Below are positions 25,983-62,990 of a stretch of DNA of 64,000 bases, in pieces; position 1 is the first letter of the stretch, and each line of letters opens with the position of its first letter. Under the pieces are notes generated by a model. The model was not told where the DNA came from, ran no database searches, and saw only the letters and a program-made list of their open reading frames with translations. The position numbers and the translations under genes were made by a program. This DNA comes from a virus. Location: positions 26,119-90,118 of IMG/VR virus record IMGVR_UViG_3300029882_000268; one strand, 5' to 3'.

Positions 25983-26504
25983 TTACCAACCGCCCGAACC
26001 ACCACGGTTCGGATGGCCTGTAGACAGATCGTCCACAGCGCCGAAGTCTTCGTGATCGACGATGGTGACGGGCTGTGCGTCGTAATTGACGCCCGGAGGA
26101 GGCGGTGGAACCGTCTGCTGGATAGGCTCGATCCACTGGTCAATGGAGCGGCGAACGTCGTAAACGCTAACCTGAGCGTGAATGCGTGGATACCAGCGGT
26201 TCTCGATTTCAACCTGACCACGGTAGTCGTAGCCCAAAATCCACCACTGGCTGCCGTCATGTGCTTGGAAGATCGCACCCGGCATCATGTAGGCGAAGAA
26301 AACTTCATCACCTTCGATAGGCGACAGGGGGTTAGGCATGAGCAAGTTGCCCGGATTTGGAGCAAACTGAGCGAAGGTAGAGGTACGGAAGTCGTCAGGG
26401 TCACCGACCATCTTCTGGAGTTCGGGGTTCCCGTTCGGCAGGTCTTCTTCGGTCAGGATACGAGCGGTCTTGGCGACCGCGCTTGCTAGTGCGTTTGCGT
26501 CCAT
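25983..26504 (-). CDS. Hypothetical virion protein
   Basis: 173 residues, not recognised. AYMMPGAIFQAHDGSQWWIL and YDYRGQVEIENRWYPRIHAQ form an SH3-like beta pattern; the tail has a proline run (QTVPPPPPGV) and ends GGSGGW. Same operon as its neighbours (38-33 nt spacers). Possible head-tail joining or baseplate protein. Confidence 0.65.
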   Translation of the reverse strand: MDANALASAVAKTARILTEEDLPNGNPELQKMVGDPDDFRTSTFAQFAPNPGNLLMPNPLSPIEGDEVFFAYMMPGAIFQAHDGSQWWILGYDYRGQVEIENRWYPRIHAQVSVYDVRRSIDQWIEPIQQTVPPPPPGVNYDAQPVTIVDHEDFGAVDDLSTGHPNRGGSGGW

Positions 26505-33934: not shown

Positions 33935-35371
33935 TTATGCGTACACTTCCAACGGCACTTCCGCAAGCTGCCGAATTTCAGGGAATTTCTGGAACCGCAG
34001 GACCTCGCCGTTCAGGTACGCTGGTTCAAGAATGTCAAACGGGTAGCCCATCTTGCCGTCACCCCTGTACTGCATGGAGTGATAGCCGCCCTGCTGGTCG
34101 TCCAGAAGGGCCTGCCGCCCGCGCTTCGATGCCTTGCCGGGATCGGTGATCGGGTCTTTCCAGATTTCAATCTGCTGACCGTTGATGACAGCGTTGCAGC
34201 ACTTGATTGCAACCTTCTGCGTATCTCGGTTCAATTTCTGGAGCAGCCCACCACCCATACCAAACACGATGTTGGCTGCGGACCACTTGGCGTCCTTCAT
34301 TGCCTGCAAAATCTTGCGGATGCCGTAGTGGTCGATGCCGTCGCCCCAGAGGACGCCGACGCAAGGCGGAAGCAGCTTGTAGCCGTTGCTCGTCTCGCGG
34401 ATGCCGAACTTCTCGCCCAGAATTTCCAGCACGCGAAGAGTGATCGCTACTGGATCACCGGAGTCGGGACGGACCACAACCTTGCCGTTACGGTTGCGGA
34501 TGCGTTCGCGATACGTGCCGCCGATGATGTTGGCAGTGAAGTTGAAAATGTCGTAGGAATCGCCAACGAGGGAGAGAATACCCGTGGGCACTTCATCCAG
34601 TGCGTTCTCGACAAACTTTGATTCGTACTCACGGCCCCACATAGTGGTGACGGAGTGCTCAGACGCGAATACGGAGTAACCCGGCATTTCGCCGCCGAAC
34701 TTCCCGAATCCGTAGAACTGCTCGATGTAGTCAATTCCGGGCAGTGTGTCCGTGCCTTGGAAGTTGACAAGGTGAGCCGCAGCACCGATACCCATTTGCT
34801 CGACGCAAGTGACGCCGCGACCGCCGAAATCGTGAAGCTGATACGGCAACGTGGAGAAATCATCAGCCGTCTCCGCGAGGAACTCAGCGAGGATTTGCTT
34901 GGTATAGCGAGACCGCGTGACGACAGCCGAGGGATACCACACGTGCTCCAGAATTGTTTCCGTCCAGCCCGGAACCCACGCACATTGATCGCAGGTGTTC
35001 TTCATCGTCCACATGACGTTCTTCACGGGGATCGGGAGACCTTCCTTGACCGCACGGATGTCCAGCGGTAGGTAGCCGCCATGTGCGTTGATGACGTGCC
35101 GCCAGCCTTCCTTGTTGAAGGCGCGGTCGTTCATGAAGTGCAGGCCCGCTTTGTACTCCGCTTCCTCAACATCAGTCAGCGTAGCGAACTTGCCCTCGAT
35201 GTTGCGGATCATGTTGCCCTGCAAATCGAACAGGACGGTGTACGGGTACTCGCCGCCGCGAGCCTCATAGTAATACAGCATTTCCGTGGTGCCCGGAACG
35301 ATGAACCGCCAGTGACCGACCTTGTAGCTGTCAGTCTTATGTAGTGGACGCGGTTTGAATGGACGTGGCAT
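33935..35371 (-). CDS. nadV: Nicotinamide phosphoribosyltransferase
   Basis: 478 residues, the usual NAMPT length. KPRPLHKTDSYKVGHWRFIV, YYYEARGGEYPYTVLFDLQG, HDFGGRGVTCVEQMGIGAAA, VNFQGTDTLPGIDYIEQFYG and VVRPDSGDPVAITLRVLEIL are the conserved family blocks. It makes NMN from nicotinamide and PRPP. Its start overlaps the 3' end of the NadM-Nudix gene by 35 nt, so the two are translationally coupled. Together they form the two-enzyme route (Nampt plus NMNAT) by which some phages rebuild NAD+ after NAD-depleting defences. Confidence 0.95.
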   Translation of the reverse strand: MPRPFKPRPLHKTDSYKVGHWRFIVPGTTEMLYYYEARGGEYPYTVLFDLQGNMIRNIEGKFATLTDVEEAEYKAGLHFMNDRAFNKEGWRHVINAHGGYLPLDIRAVKEGLPIPVKNVMWTMKNTCDQCAWVPGWTETILEHVWYPSAVVTRSRYTKQILAEFLAETADDFSTLPYQLHDFGGRGVTCVEQMGIGAAAHLVNFQGTDTLPGIDYIEQFYGFGKFGGEMPGYSVFASEHSVTTMWGREYESKFVENALDEVPTGILSLVGDSYDIFNFTANIIGGTYRERIRNRNGKVVVRPDSGDPVAITLRVLEILGEKFGIRETSNGYKLLPPCVGVLWGDGIDHYGIRKILQAMKDAKWSAANIVFGMGGGLLQKLNRDTQKVAIKCCNAVINGQQIEIWKDPITDPGKASKRGRQALLDDQQGGYHSMQYRGDGKMGYPFDILEPAYLNGEVLRFQKFPEIRQLAEVPLEVYA

Positions 35372-36278
35372 TTTGTGCCTCCTTGAATTTCTTGAGATAA
35401 TTCTGCAACATGACGAGAAGCTCCATGTGTTCCACCATCATGTCAAATGCCGTGAGTTTATCGAGACGGAACCAGCGAACATCCTTCACGTCGTCCTTCG
35501 CCACGGCCCCCATGTTACTGACACGTCCTGCGTAGAATGCGGTCAGCACGCTGCGGTCGGCAACACGGTAACGCCAGTCGTCGATGATGGCGGACCCGAT
35601 GTACTCTTGGTCAATCAGGTCGCAGCCCGTCTCTTCAATGGCTTCGAGCCGAGCGTTCTTTTCGATGTTGCCCTTTCGAGCTTCAACGTGCCCGCCTGCG
35701 AATCGCCATTTGTTTTCACCGGGCTTTTGAGCGAGAAGAACCTCGCTACGGTCATAGCTCAGGATGGCGATATCGACCATCATAAGCGTTACAGGCCACA
35801 GATGGTGAATAGCGTAGATCATGCCCGCACGGAAATCGGAAGATTCGAGCACCTTATCAGAATGTTCCTTGCGGTTAGCCGTTGCACTAATGGAGGCATC
35901 AACGGAGAGAGCCAATTCAACAGGCTTGAATCTGCCGTGGTAGTGCGGGACAAAAGAGTCGCGTCCGCCGTACAGTGTAACGTCGGCGAAATCGGCACAC
36001 GAGGAAATGGCGTAATCCAGTTGCTCGCTCCAAGACTCATCGTCTCGGGTATCGCGGAGTGGGAGCACGATGAACTCGGGGAATTTGGCTTGGATCATAG
36101 CCTTCCGCGTCGGGAAGTCCAGAGGGTGGTTCTGTGTGAGACTTGCGGGTGCCACACCGACGAACACGATTACAGTTTTGTGATTCCGTCGAACCTGACG
36201 GAATAGCTCCATGTGCCCTTCGGTTAAATCGGTGACTTGGAACCGTCCGACGATGACGCCGTAGCTCGGTTTAATCAC
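35337..36278 (-). CDS. nadM: Bifunctional NMN adenylyltransferase / Nudix hydrolase
   Basis: 313 residues, GTG start. N-terminal NadM-type nucleotidyltransferase (1-170): GVIVGRFQVTDLTEGHMELF with the HxxH-type site partly altered (EGHMEL), FPTRKAMIQAKFPEFIVLPL, and a C-terminal ISATANRKEH matching ISxT-x-x-R. C-terminal Nudix domain (180-300): the Nudix box is GHVEARKGNIEKNARLEAIE, then ETGC. It converts NMN to NAD+, while the Nudix half may hydrolyse ADP-ribose derivatives. GTGA overlap with the upstream gene. Substrate use of the Nudix half is inferred. Confidence 0.93.
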   Translation of the reverse strand: MIKPSYGVIVGRFQVTDLTEGHMELFRQVRRNHKTVIVFVGVAPASLTQNHPLDFPTRKAMIQAKFPEFIVLPLRDTRDDESWSEQLDYAISSCADFADVTLYGGRDSFVPHYHGRFKPVELALSVDASISATANRKEHSDKVLESSDFRAGMIYAIHHLWPVTLMMVDIAILSYDRSEVLLAQKPGENKWRFAGGHVEARKGNIEKNARLEAIEETGCDLIDQEYIGSAIIDDWRYRVADRSVLTAFYAGRVSNMGAVAKDDVKDVRWFRLDKLTAFDMMVEHMELLVMLQNYLKKFKEAQNATSIQTASTT

Positions 36279-49368: not shown

Positions 49369-49450
49369 TGGCACGCGGGGAAGGACTCGAACCTTCGACC
49401 TCCGAAGCTTGCGCCCCGGCGCTCTGTAACCCCAACTGAGCTACCCGCGT
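49369..49450 (-). tRNA. tRNA gene with 8-nt anticodon loop (GCA?)
   Basis: 82 nt: ACGCGGG / CCCGCGT, G73, CCA; D arm GCTC-13 nt-GAGC; anticodon stem CCGGG / TTCGG with two G.U pairs around GCGCAAGC, an 8-nt loop. If GCA is the anticodon it is Cys-type with C33. GAGTATTAAAAG lies upstream as a -10-like element at the head of the array. Confidence 0.65.
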
Positions 49451-53783: not shown

Positions 53784-54353
53784 ATGCCGAAATTTGGACC
53801 GATGTCAAAAACGCACAAACGAAAAATCAGTGAGGCAAACAGGGGAGTTCCGAAGTCCGTAGATCACAAAATTCTTCTGACAATCATCGGCAATCAATTG
53901 GAACAACACGGAATCACCGTCGAAATCTACAAACAGAAGCTCGCCGATGGGTTGCGGTGGTGTCACGGGCACGGCGCTTTCATGCCCGAAACTTTATTCG
54001 GAACTGCTAAACACGGAAATCGGTGTGAGGAATGTCGTAGTAAGTATGAATTCTCTCGCAAACACCATTTGCCGTGGGCGTGGTATGAACAAAAACTAAT
54101 TGAGCAAGATGGCGGATGTGGACTCTGTGGTGGACCTCCAACGAAACGGAAGGGGCGGCGAGTTCCGCTATTCGATCTCGACCATGACCATGCTTGTTGT
54201 TCTGGGGATAGGTCGTGTGGACGATGCGCTCGCGGTCTCTTGTGTAGTCGGTGTAATTTTGTTTTAGGCTGGATTGAAAAGGATTTGACTCGGCTCAATT
54301 TGCTGGAAAAGATTACTACGTATCTTGAGAAATACTCTCATTCTTTCCAATAA
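53784..54353 (+). CDS. Endonuclease VII-type HNH homing endonuclease
   Basis: 189 residues: NUMOD3-like N-terminus (MSKTHKRKISEANRGVPKS), CHGHGAFMPETLFG/CEECRS knuckles, CGLCGGPPTKRKGRRVPLFD, DHDHACCSGDRSCGRCARGL, CSRCNFVLGWIE. Preceded by CAGTATTATG and GAGG. Last 16 nt overlap the convergent gene 54338-55291. Confidence 0.9.
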   Translation: MPKFGPMSKTHKRKISEANRGVPKSVDHKILLTIIGNQLEQHGITVEIYKQKLADGLRWCHGHGAFMPETLFGTAKHGNRCEECRSKYEFSRKHHLPWAWYEQKLIEQDGGCGLCGGPPTKRKGRRVPLFDLDHDHACCSGDRSCGRCARGLLCSRCNFVLGWIEKDLTRLNLLEKITTYLEKYSHSFQ

Positions 54354-55291
54354 ACTCCTCCACTCGGCAGGTCGTAGGAGTTGCCGTCATAACGGGACAG
54401 GAAGTGCTGCCAGCCATCGGCTGCAACTGCTTCTTCTGCCGCTGCGTTAATGTCGATCCCAGCGATCACAATTGCCTGCTTGATGCCGTCCGCGTCCCCA
54501 TAGATTTCCTGCATGTACTGCACGGGATAGCGGAGGAGTTCGGTGACTTTCTCTTCGAGCCAATCCTCGGAAGGTTCGGTCTCTTCTTGAATGGGCTCGC
54601 CAGCCGAATCGTATTCGCCGTCGTCTTCTTCCTCGCCCTCAGCGTTGTAGCGGACGAGTTCTTCGCCCCCACCGGGCTCCCACCCATAGGAATCTGGAGA
54701 TTGACGGATGCCTTCTTCCACGTCCGACCACAGGTCGTTGCGGAGGCGCTCTTCGTTGATGTGGCTTTGGAGCCAGTCCTGATTGAAAAGTTCGGGCTGG
54801 TCGCTTAGATCGCTGCGGACTTGTTCAAGGGCGATACGCTCGGGGGTGTCATCGTTGGCTGCAATGATGTAGCCAGCAACCGTACAGGTGCCATCGGAGT
54901 TATCCGTGACATCCACGCTGTAGTCGTCGTAATCGAACTTTTCGGCTTCCAAGAATTCAATGACCGCCGTGACCAGATCGTCGTCGCCTAGTTCAGTCTC
55001 AAGAGCTTCGCGCACGCGAGCGGCCTTGGCTTCAGGGGTTTCCTCAACCTCTTCCTCTTCGACTTCCTCTACGGGAGCGACAGGGGGTGCTGCTGGGTTG
55101 GCTGGCTGTACGGGTTGAGCGGGGGCGGCTGGGTCAGCTTGGGCAGCGGGTTCATCACGCTGGATTGGGTCGCCGGGGGCGGCATTCTTCTTCGCTTCAT
55201 ACTCGGCAACAACGTCCAGAGCCGCCTTCTTGATGCCGCGTGCTTTGAAGCCTACGGCTGCGGTAATTGCTTCCTGAATTTTGTCTGCCAT
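54338..55291 (-). CDS. Acidic hypothetical protein
   Basis: 317 residues: N-terminal helix (ITAAVGFKARGIKKAALDVV), Ala/Pro linker (QADPAAPAQPVQPANPAAPP), acidic stretch (VEEVEEEEVEETPEAKAARV), then mixed domains including YSVDVTDNSDGTCTVAGYII. C-terminal IDINAAAEEAVAADGWQHFL. Not recognised. Downstream of the tmRNA on the same strand but separated by its terminator. Confidence 0.65.
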   Translation of the reverse strand: MADKIQEAITAAVGFKARGIKKAALDVVAEYEAKKNAAPGDPIQRDEPAAQADPAAPAQPVQPANPAAPPVAPVEEVEEEEVEETPEAKAARVREALETELGDDDLVTAVIEFLEAEKFDYDDYSVDVTDNSDGTCTVAGYIIAANDDTPERIALEQVRSDLSDQPELFNQDWLQSHINEERLRNDLWSDVEEGIRQSPDSYGWEPGGGEELVRYNAEGEEEDDGEYDSAGEPIQEETEPSEDWLEEKVTELLRYPVQYMQEIYGDADGIKQAIVIAGIDINAAAEEAVAADGWQHFLSRYDGNSYDLPSGGVYWKE

Positions 55292-55340
55292 AAAAGTGCC
55301 CCTATACTAGCCTTTGAAATTCAAATTGTCAACCAGAAAC

Positions 55341-55362
55341 AAAAATGCCCGCTTGCGCGGGC
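55341..55362 (-). terminator. Terminator of the tmRNA gene
   Basis: Minus strand GCCCGC-GCAA-GCGGGC followed by ATTTTTGTTT, about 50 nt past the tag stop codon. Confidence 0.88.
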
Positions 55363-55365
55363 TCT

Positions 55366-55731
55366 CTTGCCGTGTTGAGGAACAGACCCACGGGGTCTGT
55401 GCTACGCAATTAAGCGTGAGCAGCCATTGCCTTTGGAGCAGTAGCGTTTATGTTTTTGAATGGAGTTTAACGAGGAATCATCCTTCCCTCGGATCGCTGG
55501 CTGCCATCCCATACCGTCTTCATCGAAACCGGGACAGGCCCATAATGTCGGGTGTGTTTGGTCAATGCTCAAACCTACTGGTGGAGCACTCACCGAAACA
55601 CGCCCGAAGGTTACTTCGGATATGGTGGACCTGAGGGGAGTCGAACCCCTGTCTGAAAATCAGTACCAGTGCCTTTTATCCACCCGAGACCACCCATTGA
55701 AGGGTCAGGTTCGGTATGGACTTACGACCAT
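55366..55731 (-). ncRNA. ssrA: Circularly permuted two-piece tmRNA
   Basis: In transcription order the acceptor half comes first: TTTTCAGAC, T arm AGGGG-TTCGACT-CCCCT, CAGGTCC, A73, CCA ending at 55623. The coding half starts 81 nt later at 55541 with GGGCCTGTCCCGGTTTCGAT, the tmRNA 5' signature (GGG...TGGTTTCGA); GGGCCTG pairs with CAGGTCC over 7 bp. GATTCCTCGTTAAA parallels the CCTCG-TAAA block of E. coli tmRNA. ACATAAAC precedes a resume codon GCT at 55443-55445; the tag reads ATAPKAMAAHA, stop TAA at 55410-55412. A hairpin (ACAGACCC/GGGTCTGT) and a terminator follow. Own CCTAGCC-class promoter. The spacer would be excised. Expected to rescue stalled ribosomes. Confidence 0.87.
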
Positions 55732-55738
55732 CTATTAC

Positions 55739-55774
55739 ATGATACCCGAAGTCAGAGGATTTTGGCTAGGAAAT
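55739..55774 (-). promoter_or_regulatory. CCTAGCC-class promoter of the tmRNA
   Basis: Minus strand ATTTCCTAGCC (core 55764-55770), 19 nt, TATCAT at 55739-55744. Start expected near 55731, about 20 nt before the acceptor half can begin to fold. Confidence 0.65.
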
Positions 55775-55780
55775 TCGAAA

Positions 55781-57226
55781 TTAGTCGCCGAACGCCTGAG
55801 TGAAGGAGTGGAGGCCGTCAAATCCCAGCCGGGTTTCCAGCACGTTTTGGGGCTCCTCGTCGAACATGTCCGTCTTGGCGACCTTGCCGTCCTTGAAGAA
55901 CACCTTGAGCCACGTGCCGTCGCCCGCGTATTCCGTGTTGCGGGAGTAGATCACCCAGCCGTTACCTTTGCCGTCCTCGGAGAACGACCGTTTCTCCATC
56001 AGGTTAGCGACCTGTTCCTCGATTGTACCACCTTCGTATTGGCTCGGATCAGCCTTGGCGTGCTTGAGCAACTCGTTGTCTGGCTGGGGCACCTTCTCCC
56101 ACAATTGGCTGCCCTCTTCGTCTTGATTCAAGGCGACGTTGCTGCCCTGATTGTCGTCGCGGAACCGCTTGGCATCCTCGGGGGAGAAAAAGCCTCTCTT
56201 GGGGAGTCCTCCCCTAACAGCGGCGTCGGTCGCCAGATCGTGCAGAATCCACGTGGCGGCATCGTTGCCTACAAGCTCGTTCAGGGCGTCGTAACGGCTC
56301 ATGAGCGACCGCGAGCCCGCGTAGGGTCCCTTGGTCTCAGTCTTCGGGTGCTCCTTGATCCACTTGTCGAGGTCCGCCGTGGTCTTAATACCGAGGCTCC
56401 GCAGCTTGGCGACAGCCTCACGGGTGCCTTGGCTGCCAGCCCGCTTGCTGTTCATCTTGGAAAAGGGCATAGCCTGCGGCTCGGGCACGCCGGGTTGACG
56501 CTCTGGGCGGCACTGCCAGCCGATCCACTTACCCTTGGAGGCGGCGATCTGAGGACCGTAGAATTCGCAGACGATATCTGCGCTGACTTCCATCTCGGCC
56601 TCGTTTCCGAATGAGAAATACGCTACGTGCTGTTCGTCATCCGTCGCCACGTCAAAGTCCCGCATACCCGCGTTGGCGAGGGTGTGGGCTACTTGATGGG
56701 CATACTCCTGCGGCACTCCCCAGCTTGTGGCTGGTACGAAACCGCTGATCTTACGCCGCGTAGCGACCCTCTCAGATGCGTATTGCGGCTTATTAGGAGC
56801 CCGCTGTGGGGTTTGAGGCTGGGTTGGACCCATCTGGGGCTTCTTGGGTTGCTGCCCCTTGGGGAACATGATACGGCTCTGCTCCTGTGCGCTGCCCTGC
56901 GCGGGCGGGCAGGACATGTGGGATTCCATACCGCCTTCCCATGAGATCGTCTCCCCCTGCTGGATGGGCTGTTTGCACTTGTAGCAGGTCTGCTGTCCCT
57001 GATCCATGCTGAGTGGTGCGCCTGCACCGTCTTTTTGGAGCAAAGGGTTCTGGGAAGCCATACGAACAGGCTCGACGATCTTCTCATCCTCAGCCGGGGC
57101 GACAGGCGGTGGTGGGGCGACCCTTTTGGTCGCTGGATCAAGCATATCCCCTTGCTCGTTATCATCTTGCGGCAGGATGATGGGGTCTTGATCGTCGTTT
57201 GTCTTTTTCTGGAAAAGCGGGTTCAT
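55781..57226 (-). CDS. Virion-associated protein beginning MNPLFQKK
   Basis: 481 residues. Opens MNPLFQKKTNDDQDPI, like the 551-residue protein at 14050-15705, and repeats the motif internally (ASQNPLLQKDGAGAP). CYKCKQPIQQGETISWEGGM and SHMSC form a zinc site (about 85-110). The middle (RKISGFVPATSWGVPQEYAH) and the C-terminal part (WVIYSRNTEYAGDGTWLKVF, FKDGKVAKTDMF) are compact domains. Internal or packaged protein suggested by the shared N-terminus. Not recognised. Confidence 0.65.
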   Translation of the reverse strand: MNPLFQKKTNDDQDPIILPQDDNEQGDMLDPATKRVAPPPPVAPAEDEKIVEPVRMASQNPLLQKDGAGAPLSMDQGQQTCYKCKQPIQQGETISWEGGMESHMSCPPAQGSAQEQSRIMFPKGQQPKKPQMGPTQPQTPQRAPNKPQYASERVATRRKISGFVPATSWGVPQEYAHQVAHTLANAGMRDFDVATDDEQHVAYFSFGNEAEMEVSADIVCEFYGPQIAASKGKWIGWQCRPERQPGVPEPQAMPFSKMNSKRAGSQGTREAVAKLRSLGIKTTADLDKWIKEHPKTETKGPYAGSRSLMSRYDALNELVGNDAATWILHDLATDAAVRGGLPKRGFFSPEDAKRFRDDNQGSNVALNQDEEGSQLWEKVPQPDNELLKHAKADPSQYEGGTIEEQVANLMEKRSFSEDGKGNGWVIYSRNTEYAGDGTWLKVFFKDGKVAKTDMFDEEPQNVLETRLGFDGLHSFTQAFGD

Positions 57227-62354: not shown

Positions 62355-62990
62355 TCATCTTACTTCCAGCCCGTACACTGCGGGTTTCGGTTCAAAAAAT
62401 AGTAATCCCTTTACTGCGGCCCACCGTTTACGGACACACCAAGAGTTGAACTCGGGGGTTCGGTGTTTATGAGCCTCGGACATCTTCCTTCTTGTATTTA
62501 ACGAAGCTTTTCTATCAACCGCCCACAGTCGAATTTTCTCTCTGGCTGCGTCAGATGGACGCCCCGGAATAAACGCTCCTTGCTTAAGAGCTAGGAATCC
62601 GTTTTTCTGTAAATTGCTACGTCCTTCTGGGGTTTGAACACGCCGTTTGGCTGATGCGGACATATTGCGTTTAGCCTCATCGGACTTGTCCCTGTTAAGC
62701 CCCTTTTGGTTAATCCAATCGAACCCACCCTTACCGCCTTTTCGCAAATTGTAACATAGCGGGTTGTCCCTATGCTGCTGGACGACCTCTTCTTCTTTAT
62801 GGAAGGCGGATTCCGCATCTTCGAAGGTGAAAAGGATTTCTTTTTGAAAATTACTCACCCCGTATTTCGCTACCGCTCTACGAATCAACGTTCCCGAACC
62901 GAGGTAGGCATCATGGGGGTTACTGGTGCGATGAACACCGATGTAGTATCGATTCGTCACGGCATTCGTGATTTTATAGACTGTATACAT
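62355..62990 (-). CDS. GIY-YIG homing endonuclease (SegA/B-like)
   Basis: 211 residues: MYTVYKITNAVTNRYYIGVH (GIY-YIG), DAYLGSGTLIRRAVAKYGV, FEDAESAFHKEEEVVQQHRD (catalytic Glu), CYNLRKGGKGGFD, then NUMOD3-type repeats (KSDEAKRNMSASAKRR, ... NTRRKMSEAHKHRTPE). Its start abuts the next gene's stop. Confidence 0.92.
   Translation of the reverse strand: MYTVYKITNAVTNRYYIGVHRTSNPHDAYLGSGTLIRRAVAKYGVSNFQKEILFTFEDAESAFHKEEEVVQQHRDNPLCYNLRKGGKGGFDWINQKGLNRDKSDEAKRNMSASAKRRVQTPEGRSNLQKNGFLALKQGAFIPGRPSDAAREKIRLWAVDRKASLNTRRKMSEAHKHRTPEFNSWCVRKRWAAVKGLLFFEPKPAVYGLEVR

Follow-up and report, generated by a model that had tools for sequence, protein, structure and literature searches.

The locus at 55347–55731 on the minus strand of the DNA analysed here raises the question of whether a phage encodes its own circularly permuted (two-piece) tmRNA and, if so, whether the peptide tag of this RNA is still a full signal for degradation. 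The window, i.e., the whole stretch of 64,000 nucleotides, comprises positions 26119–90118 of a 90,118-base virus record, and is contained at 99–100% identity in a 186-kb record (G002). A preliminary description of the sequence had proposed that the phage carries a permuted tmRNA of its own and that its tag is altered, and both points are well supported. ARAGORN calls a permuted tmRNA (tmRNA*) at 55319–55719 on the minus strand with the tag ATAPKAMAAHA, and the Rfam family RF04321 (tmRNA_permuted) matches 55416–55684 with 61.4 bits, above its gathering cut-off of 47; by both methods, the gene is a phage-encoded tmRNA gene of the two-piece type. ARAGORN made no tmRNA call when given 40 copies of the window simulated with a first-order Markov model (2.56 Mb in total), and the folding energy of 55330–55719 lies 5.0 SD below that of 100 shuffles.

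The form of the gene was settled by gene order and not by an Rfam model alone, because RF04321 and the one-piece model RF00023 cross-hit both ways: RF00023 passes on a permuted phage gene (L204, 52.3 bits), and RF04321 passes on some one-piece acidobacterial genes (L360–L372). In the window, the acceptor half with its encoded CCA lies upstream of the 5′ half, which is the order that defines the permuted form. The positions assigned earlier hold, with the encoded CCA ending at 55623, the 5′ end of the coding piece at 55541, 81 nt separating the two, and a 7-bp acceptor stem, GGGCCTG/CAGGTCC, that includes a G3–U70 wobble. This wobble is the alanine identity pair. Of the three older clade models, proposed at the same time as a check, the best, beta_tmRNA (RF01850), reaches 45.2 bits and remains under its cut-off of 84; it is RF04321 and ARAGORN that call the permuted form. 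The gene resembles the betaproteobacterial two-piece tmRNA in acceptor stem, T arm and segment order, however, it matches only model positions 77–166 of 331. A host-like one-piece tmRNA at 55347–55731, named in the preliminary description as the finding that would speak against its reading, was considered and rejected; RF00023 is absent from the window's matches over cut-off, and on the G002 copy of the gene it scores 29.0 bits, short of its cut-off of 47.

All parts of the locus lie on the minus strand and are given here in the order of transcription. A promoter-like site, TAGCCA-18 nt-TATCAT (55739–55768; 9 of 12 matches), precedes the acceptor piece. The earlier claim that the gene has its own promoter is supported in part. 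A box similar to the −10 element (TATCAT, 55744–55739) is seen by eye at a comparable position in 11 of 14 rows, the window included (it is not evident in L354, L211 and L435), but the −35 element is weak in the window; a good −35 was found by eye in L207, L208 and L434. Three promoter-like sites occur in 55200–55850, compared with a shuffle average of 0.6. The acceptor piece (55623–55731), transcribed first, carries the upstream helix strands, the T arm (55634–55650) and the acceptor 3′ strand CAGGTCC (55627–55633), followed by an A and the encoded CCA. The intervening segment of 81 nt (55542–55622) separates the CCA from the coding piece and, by analogy with known permuted tmRNAs, would be expected to be removed. 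Across 14 genes measured, this segment ranges from 4 to 81 nt; in L208 and L434 the encoded CCA is followed after only 4 nt by the 5′ acceptor strand, which leaves almost no intervening segment.

The coding piece (55366–55541) starts with the 5′ acceptor strand GGGCCTG (55541–55535) and continues with a TTCGATG segment, a possible upstream pseudoknot, the tag frame and a downstream pseudoknot. The resume codon (as chosen by ARAGORN), the tag reading frame and its stop are all present, and the frame of 11 codons plus TAA (55445–55410; TAA at 55412–55410) encodes ATAPKAMAAHA, as had been described. After the tag, an H-type pseudoknot (55370–55399) is predicted from the hairpin CAGACC-CCGTG-GGTCTG (55399–55383) and the strand CACGG (55374–55370). 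The locus ends with a candidate intrinsic terminator at 55337–55362, GCCCGC-GCAA-GCGGGC ATTTTTGTTT. The hairpin stem of the terminator claimed earlier is thus present (55362–55347), but the site alone is no better than chance, because a single terminator-like site was found and shuffles average 0.9. A similar hairpin with a T run follows the tag in all eight AHA rows compared.

The pairing of GGGCCTG with CAGGTCC is stable among relatives, as anticipated, with every pair of the acceptor stem formed in each of 10 distinct rows (the window, the phage Tunturi_5 and eight other phage contigs). In the acceptor and T stems together, 120 of 120 cells are paired and both bases vary in 9 of the 12 pairs. 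The covariation score, a statistic that ignores kinship and rests on rows cut and set in register by hand, is 0.61; none of 500 shuffles reached this value, and slid versions gave 0.07–0.13. The pair-type count was matched by 2 of 500 shuffles. Three pairs never vary, and among them is G3–U70, found in 10 of 10 rows. L211 and L435, in which the T loop is shorter, are outside this count, as are L209 and L358, which are the same as the window in those stretches; a first count over nine rows with L211 had given a score of 0.63. The downstream pseudoknot behaves similarly: its hairpin is 100% paired in 7 distinct rows, the hairpin loop pairs with a CACGG or CACC strand downstream, and both bases vary in 7 of the 11 pairs. 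Among the five loop pairs, one switches between CG and GC (4:3), and another is broken in four of the seven rows. With the same limits of kinship and hand-set register, the score of 0.73 was reached by none of 500 shuffles and slid versions gave at most 0.17; two weaker measures were matched by 3 and 1 of 500 shuffles. This count leaves out L434 (loop one base longer), L206, L207 and L211 (3′ parts that look alphaproteobacterial by eye) and L204. Visual inspection suggests the upstream pseudoknot in five of seven rows.

The window's phage is a myophage, as judged from its tail sheath gene, and has a PHROG major head protein, with 160 capsid relatives among 169 matched IMG/VR stretches. The nearest named phage by capsid is Tunturi_5 of Tunturiibacter psychrotolerans (69% identity), an Acidobacteriota jumbo phage that has matches for 20 of the 62 window ORFs (≥120 aa, E value of 1e-6 or better). 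These relationships of the capsid and the ORFs make an acidobacterium the likely host. At the nucleotide level, named phages gave only matches of 36–38 bases for the gene and none for 40000–64000. Among other features of the window are genes for a nicotinamide phosphoribosyltransferase (33935–35371) and a cytidyltransferase/NUDIX-like protein (35337–36278), possibly a phage NAD-salvage pair, a homing endonuclease-like gene (phrog_314; 62355–62990), and a tRNA gene at 49372–49450 that scores 47.2 bits with Rfam and has no ARAGORN call, all on the minus strand. Of the 80 capsid relatives kept, 46 virus records were searched with RF04321, which passes in 10 of them and in 8 of the 11 records longer than 150 kb; each of the three others above that length (G005, G033, G040) may be a fragment.

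Tunturi_5 (PP885688.1, L354) itself carries a permuted tmRNA gene at 157899–158195 (RF04321, 86.4 bits), in the space that separates ORF218 from ORF219, for which no feature is annotated. The phage was described with the use of tRNAscan-SE, and the main text of that paper mentions neither tmRNA nor ssrA (PMC11924767). The two genes share the permuted form and the same pseudoknot after the tag. They differ in that the Tunturi_5 gene is not called by ARAGORN, has a tag frame of about 34 residues ending in RAFAMAA (read by hand, with the start codon assumed), and lies between other flanking genes. In the window, the neighbours are a 481-aa gene upstream (55781–57226) and a 317-aa gene downstream (54338–55291), both on the minus strand and without a PHROG match, the latter preceded by a promoter-like site of its own, TTGACA-17-TAGTAT (55332–55304). 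The upstream protein has a homologue immediately before the tmRNA in 5 of 17 loci searched (L227, L228, L230, L231, L232), and the downstream protein has one after it in 8 of the 17 (L206, L228–L232, L437, L439); no homologue of either was found in the tmRNA region of Tunturi_5.

The permuted form is not in itself new to phages. The phage tmRNAs known to the preliminary description were one-piece, but two-piece ones are already published: PMC9004378 counts 133 distinct structures of phage tmRNAs, 53 of them two-piece, and a 2025 database is stated to hold 79 bacteriophage sequences (PMC11915505). In IMG/VR, ARAGORN called tmRNA* in at least 117 of at least 120 stretches matched by a permuted-tmRNA pattern. 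Among the marine phages with two-piece tmRNAs, the Methylophilales phage Melnitz is also a myophage with a permuted ssrA, and this tmRNA was reported as not found in its host (PMC9004378). However, the Melnitz gene clusters with alphaproteobacterial ones and carries a glutamine riboswitch (PMC9004378), whereas for the window's gene beta_tmRNA is the best older model (below cut-off), no riboswitch exceeds the gathering cut-off of Rfam anywhere in the 64-kb window, and the tag ends in AAHA. Two phages with a related capsid protein, phage G and Mycobacterium phage Tonenili, likewise carry a tmRNA, but theirs are one-piece in the standard order, with RF00023 over cut-off and RF04321 not. Neither model has a match over cut-off in LR745208.1 or Gordonia phage Pupper, which are capsid- or sheath-related.

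The tmRNAs of the probable host group are of the other form. RF00023 exceeds its cut-off in 52 of 60 genomes of the Tunturiibacter family and falls below it in 8. A search of 396 Acidobacteriota genomes with RF04321, with stricter filters and 5 candidates scored per genome, gave matches in 128, over cut-off in 13. A permuted gene was sought among the best 30 RF04321 loci of the 128 matching genomes (one per genome, 13 over cut-off and 17 below) and all were one-piece, 28 by ARAGORN and two by RF00023 (L368, and L386, which is cut at a contig end). Altogether, 61 loci from 58 genomes were examined (L359–L419; three genomes were hit by both searches) and 61 of 61 are one-piece, 59 by ARAGORN and two by RF00023; 30 of these were found with the one-piece model, so that they do not test the form, and 31 with the permuted model. 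Beside its one-piece gene, L405 has a spurious permuted call by ARAGORN. The ssrA of Acidobacteriaceae, the likely host family, has one-piece form with tags such as AEPQFALAA, found in Edaphobacter lichenicola M8UP30, and ANQQMAYAA, and 57 of the 59 ARAGORN tags of the host group end in Ala-Ala, the two others looking wrong-frame. Judged by gene sequences, the permuted form in the phages mismatches that of the acidobacterial genes examined. Phages are reported to acquire ssrA fragments upon integrating there (PMC9004378), and the locus might accordingly be a captured piece of a host gene or a decaying copy without function; this is highly improbable given the one-piece form of the best 30 loci, and is already contradicted by parts that are all intact and covary across divergent phages. 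As far as the literature searched extends, in the text of it that was accessible, neither an AHA tag nor a permuted tmRNA in Acidobacteriota phages has been reported, and to that extent what is new is the occurrence of the gene in phages of Acidobacteriota, its difference in form from the tmRNAs of the host group, and the conservation of the AHA ending.

The tag of the window's gene ends in His-Ala and not in the Ala-Ala of the ssrA degron. Within the phage group, ARAGORN gives three tags with AHA, ATAPKAMAAHA, AEAPKAFAAHA and ANAPKAMAAHA, besides ATAPKALAMAAAA, VTAPKAMAMAAAA, DTENITANAPKAMAMAAAA, ATAPLAMAAAA, AAPREMAFAAAA and ANSNVALPIAA; ATAPKAFAAAA (L435) and ATAKPLAMAAAA (L211) have no ARAGORN tag and were read by hand with start codons assumed. 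The ending AAAA is found in the relatives L206, L207, L208, L434, L435 and L436. With a back-translated pattern for APKAxAAHA-stop, AAHA was found in eight viral contigs with three peptides, seven of them called as such by ARAGORN and the eighth, L358, inspected in full. Among four distinct nucleotide variants of the AHA gene, 8 of the 11 sites that vary fall on third codon positions (P = 0.009, binomial with one-third), and in the last four tag codons 4 of 4 changes are synonymous, all at third positions. At the level of the sequences compared, the AAHA ending is conserved, and its frame is kept by third-position and synonymous changes. By contrast, 70 of 79 distinct tags from at least 117 viral permuted tmRNAs end in AA and one, that of the window, in HA among the matches listed, a sample of IMG/VR contigs in which bacterial sequences may be included and one or more of the tags look wrong-frame.

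The preliminary description suggested that rescued proteins might be spared from ClpXP. This is a fair inference, however, a weakened degron fits better than the lack of one, as changing the penultimate tag alanine raises KM for E. coli ClpXP with little effect on Vmax in the data given in PMC7652416. AHA should therefore be a weaker and not an absent ClpXP signal, with histidine at a residue whose change weakens recognition in E. coli, the source of the ClpX data; the probable host group here is Acidobacteriota. The tag might, however, still be a full degron, for ClpXP or for Lon, FtsH or ClpAP, with AHA a neutral variant of a working two-piece tmRNA. This is quite possible, although it falls short of being probable: the last residue is still alanine, the tag is alanine-rich, and tags vary in capsid-related phages (QVA at the end in phage G, ALV in Tonenili), but the synonymous changes that preserve AAHA in four nucleotide variants and the rarity of HA among viral tags weigh against it. 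It may also be that AHA is due to drift, or is a signal for another protease.

We favor a weakened degron, in which the penultimate alanine of an AAAA tag would have become histidine in the window's phage and some relatives. In a capsid tree of 17 rows, in which 6 of 13 inner branches have support below 80, the window groups with G002, G005 and G009 (97/96), and G021, which has an AHA tag, with G026, which has AAAA, at 83/95. Because the support for the latter pair is only 83/95, a single Ala-to-His change and a transferred cassette both fit. G021 (L210) looks chimaeric by eye, with an acceptor half like those of G015 and L207 (AAAA tag) and a tag and 3′ pseudoknot like the window's, and is likely to have a recombined tmRNA cassette. 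Furthermore, the tmRNAs of the phage group may come from more than one source, since L211 passes the alphaproteobacterial tmRNA model (66.7 bits, cut-off 50).

A search for SmpB in 20 related phage records, of which all except Tunturi_5 are possibly fragments, gave no match, and function of the tmRNA would for this reason depend on a host SmpB that is used to one-piece tmRNA. The same result would fit a decoy that occupies SmpB and ribosomes of the host and acts chiefly by inhibiting trans-translation there, a role suggested in print for the tag-less molecule of phage DS6A, with inhibition in E. coli reported (PMC11915505, PMC4131195). We regard a decoy as very unlikely, because, unlike in DS6A, the tag frame is under purifying selection and is followed by a pseudoknot, and a decoy needs neither.

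A different cause for the presence of the tmRNA would be a need to clear ribosomes driven past UAG stops by an amber suppressor tRNA of the phage itself. G002 encodes a tRNA with anticodon CUA, a possible amber suppressor (L446:16626–16700, outside the window; 51.2 bits with RF00005), as do L227, L229 and L434, and in the 90-kb record UAG terminates 16 of the 92 ORFs picked. Since UAG readthrough would make non-stop ribosomes, there is a possible tie of the CUA tRNA to the tmRNA; such a need is nevertheless unlikely to explain the gene, as Tunturi_5 has the tmRNA, yet no CUA tRNA among its 42 ARAGORN calls. Amber recoding of the 90-kb record was considered and rejected, with ORFs picked under the standard code covering 92% of it.

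We consider it probable that the locus is a working phage two-piece ssrA that rescues ribosomes with host SmpB and adds a weakened degron. A single transcript would be cut into a CCA-ended acceptor piece and a coding piece that stay associated through the 7-bp acceptor stem. Once alanine has been attached via G3–U70, the tmRNA would enter stalled ribosomes with the help of the host's SmpB and add alanine followed by ATAPKAMAAHA, and the phage would keep ribosomes cycling when infection leaves mRNA broken or read beyond the stop. Histidine in place of alanine at the penultimate position would weaken delivery to ClpXP, with slower destruction of rescued proteins and a protease that is less loaded.

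A more far-reaching proposal, which we hold to be rather doubtful, is that large Acidobacteriota phages replaced the one-piece tag-and-destroy tmRNA of the host by a two-piece "tag-and-spare" tmRNA whose AAHA ending escapes ClpXP; if true, rescue during infection would neither clog the protease nor cost the phage its proteins. Related phages with like tags that differ at a residue read by ClpX would offer a natural test of separating ribosome rescue from proteolysis, and the Tunturi_5 isolate and its cultured host make the rescue part testable in the laboratory. Since the genes examined in the phylum are one-piece, the permuted form would not simply be a mark of host lineage.
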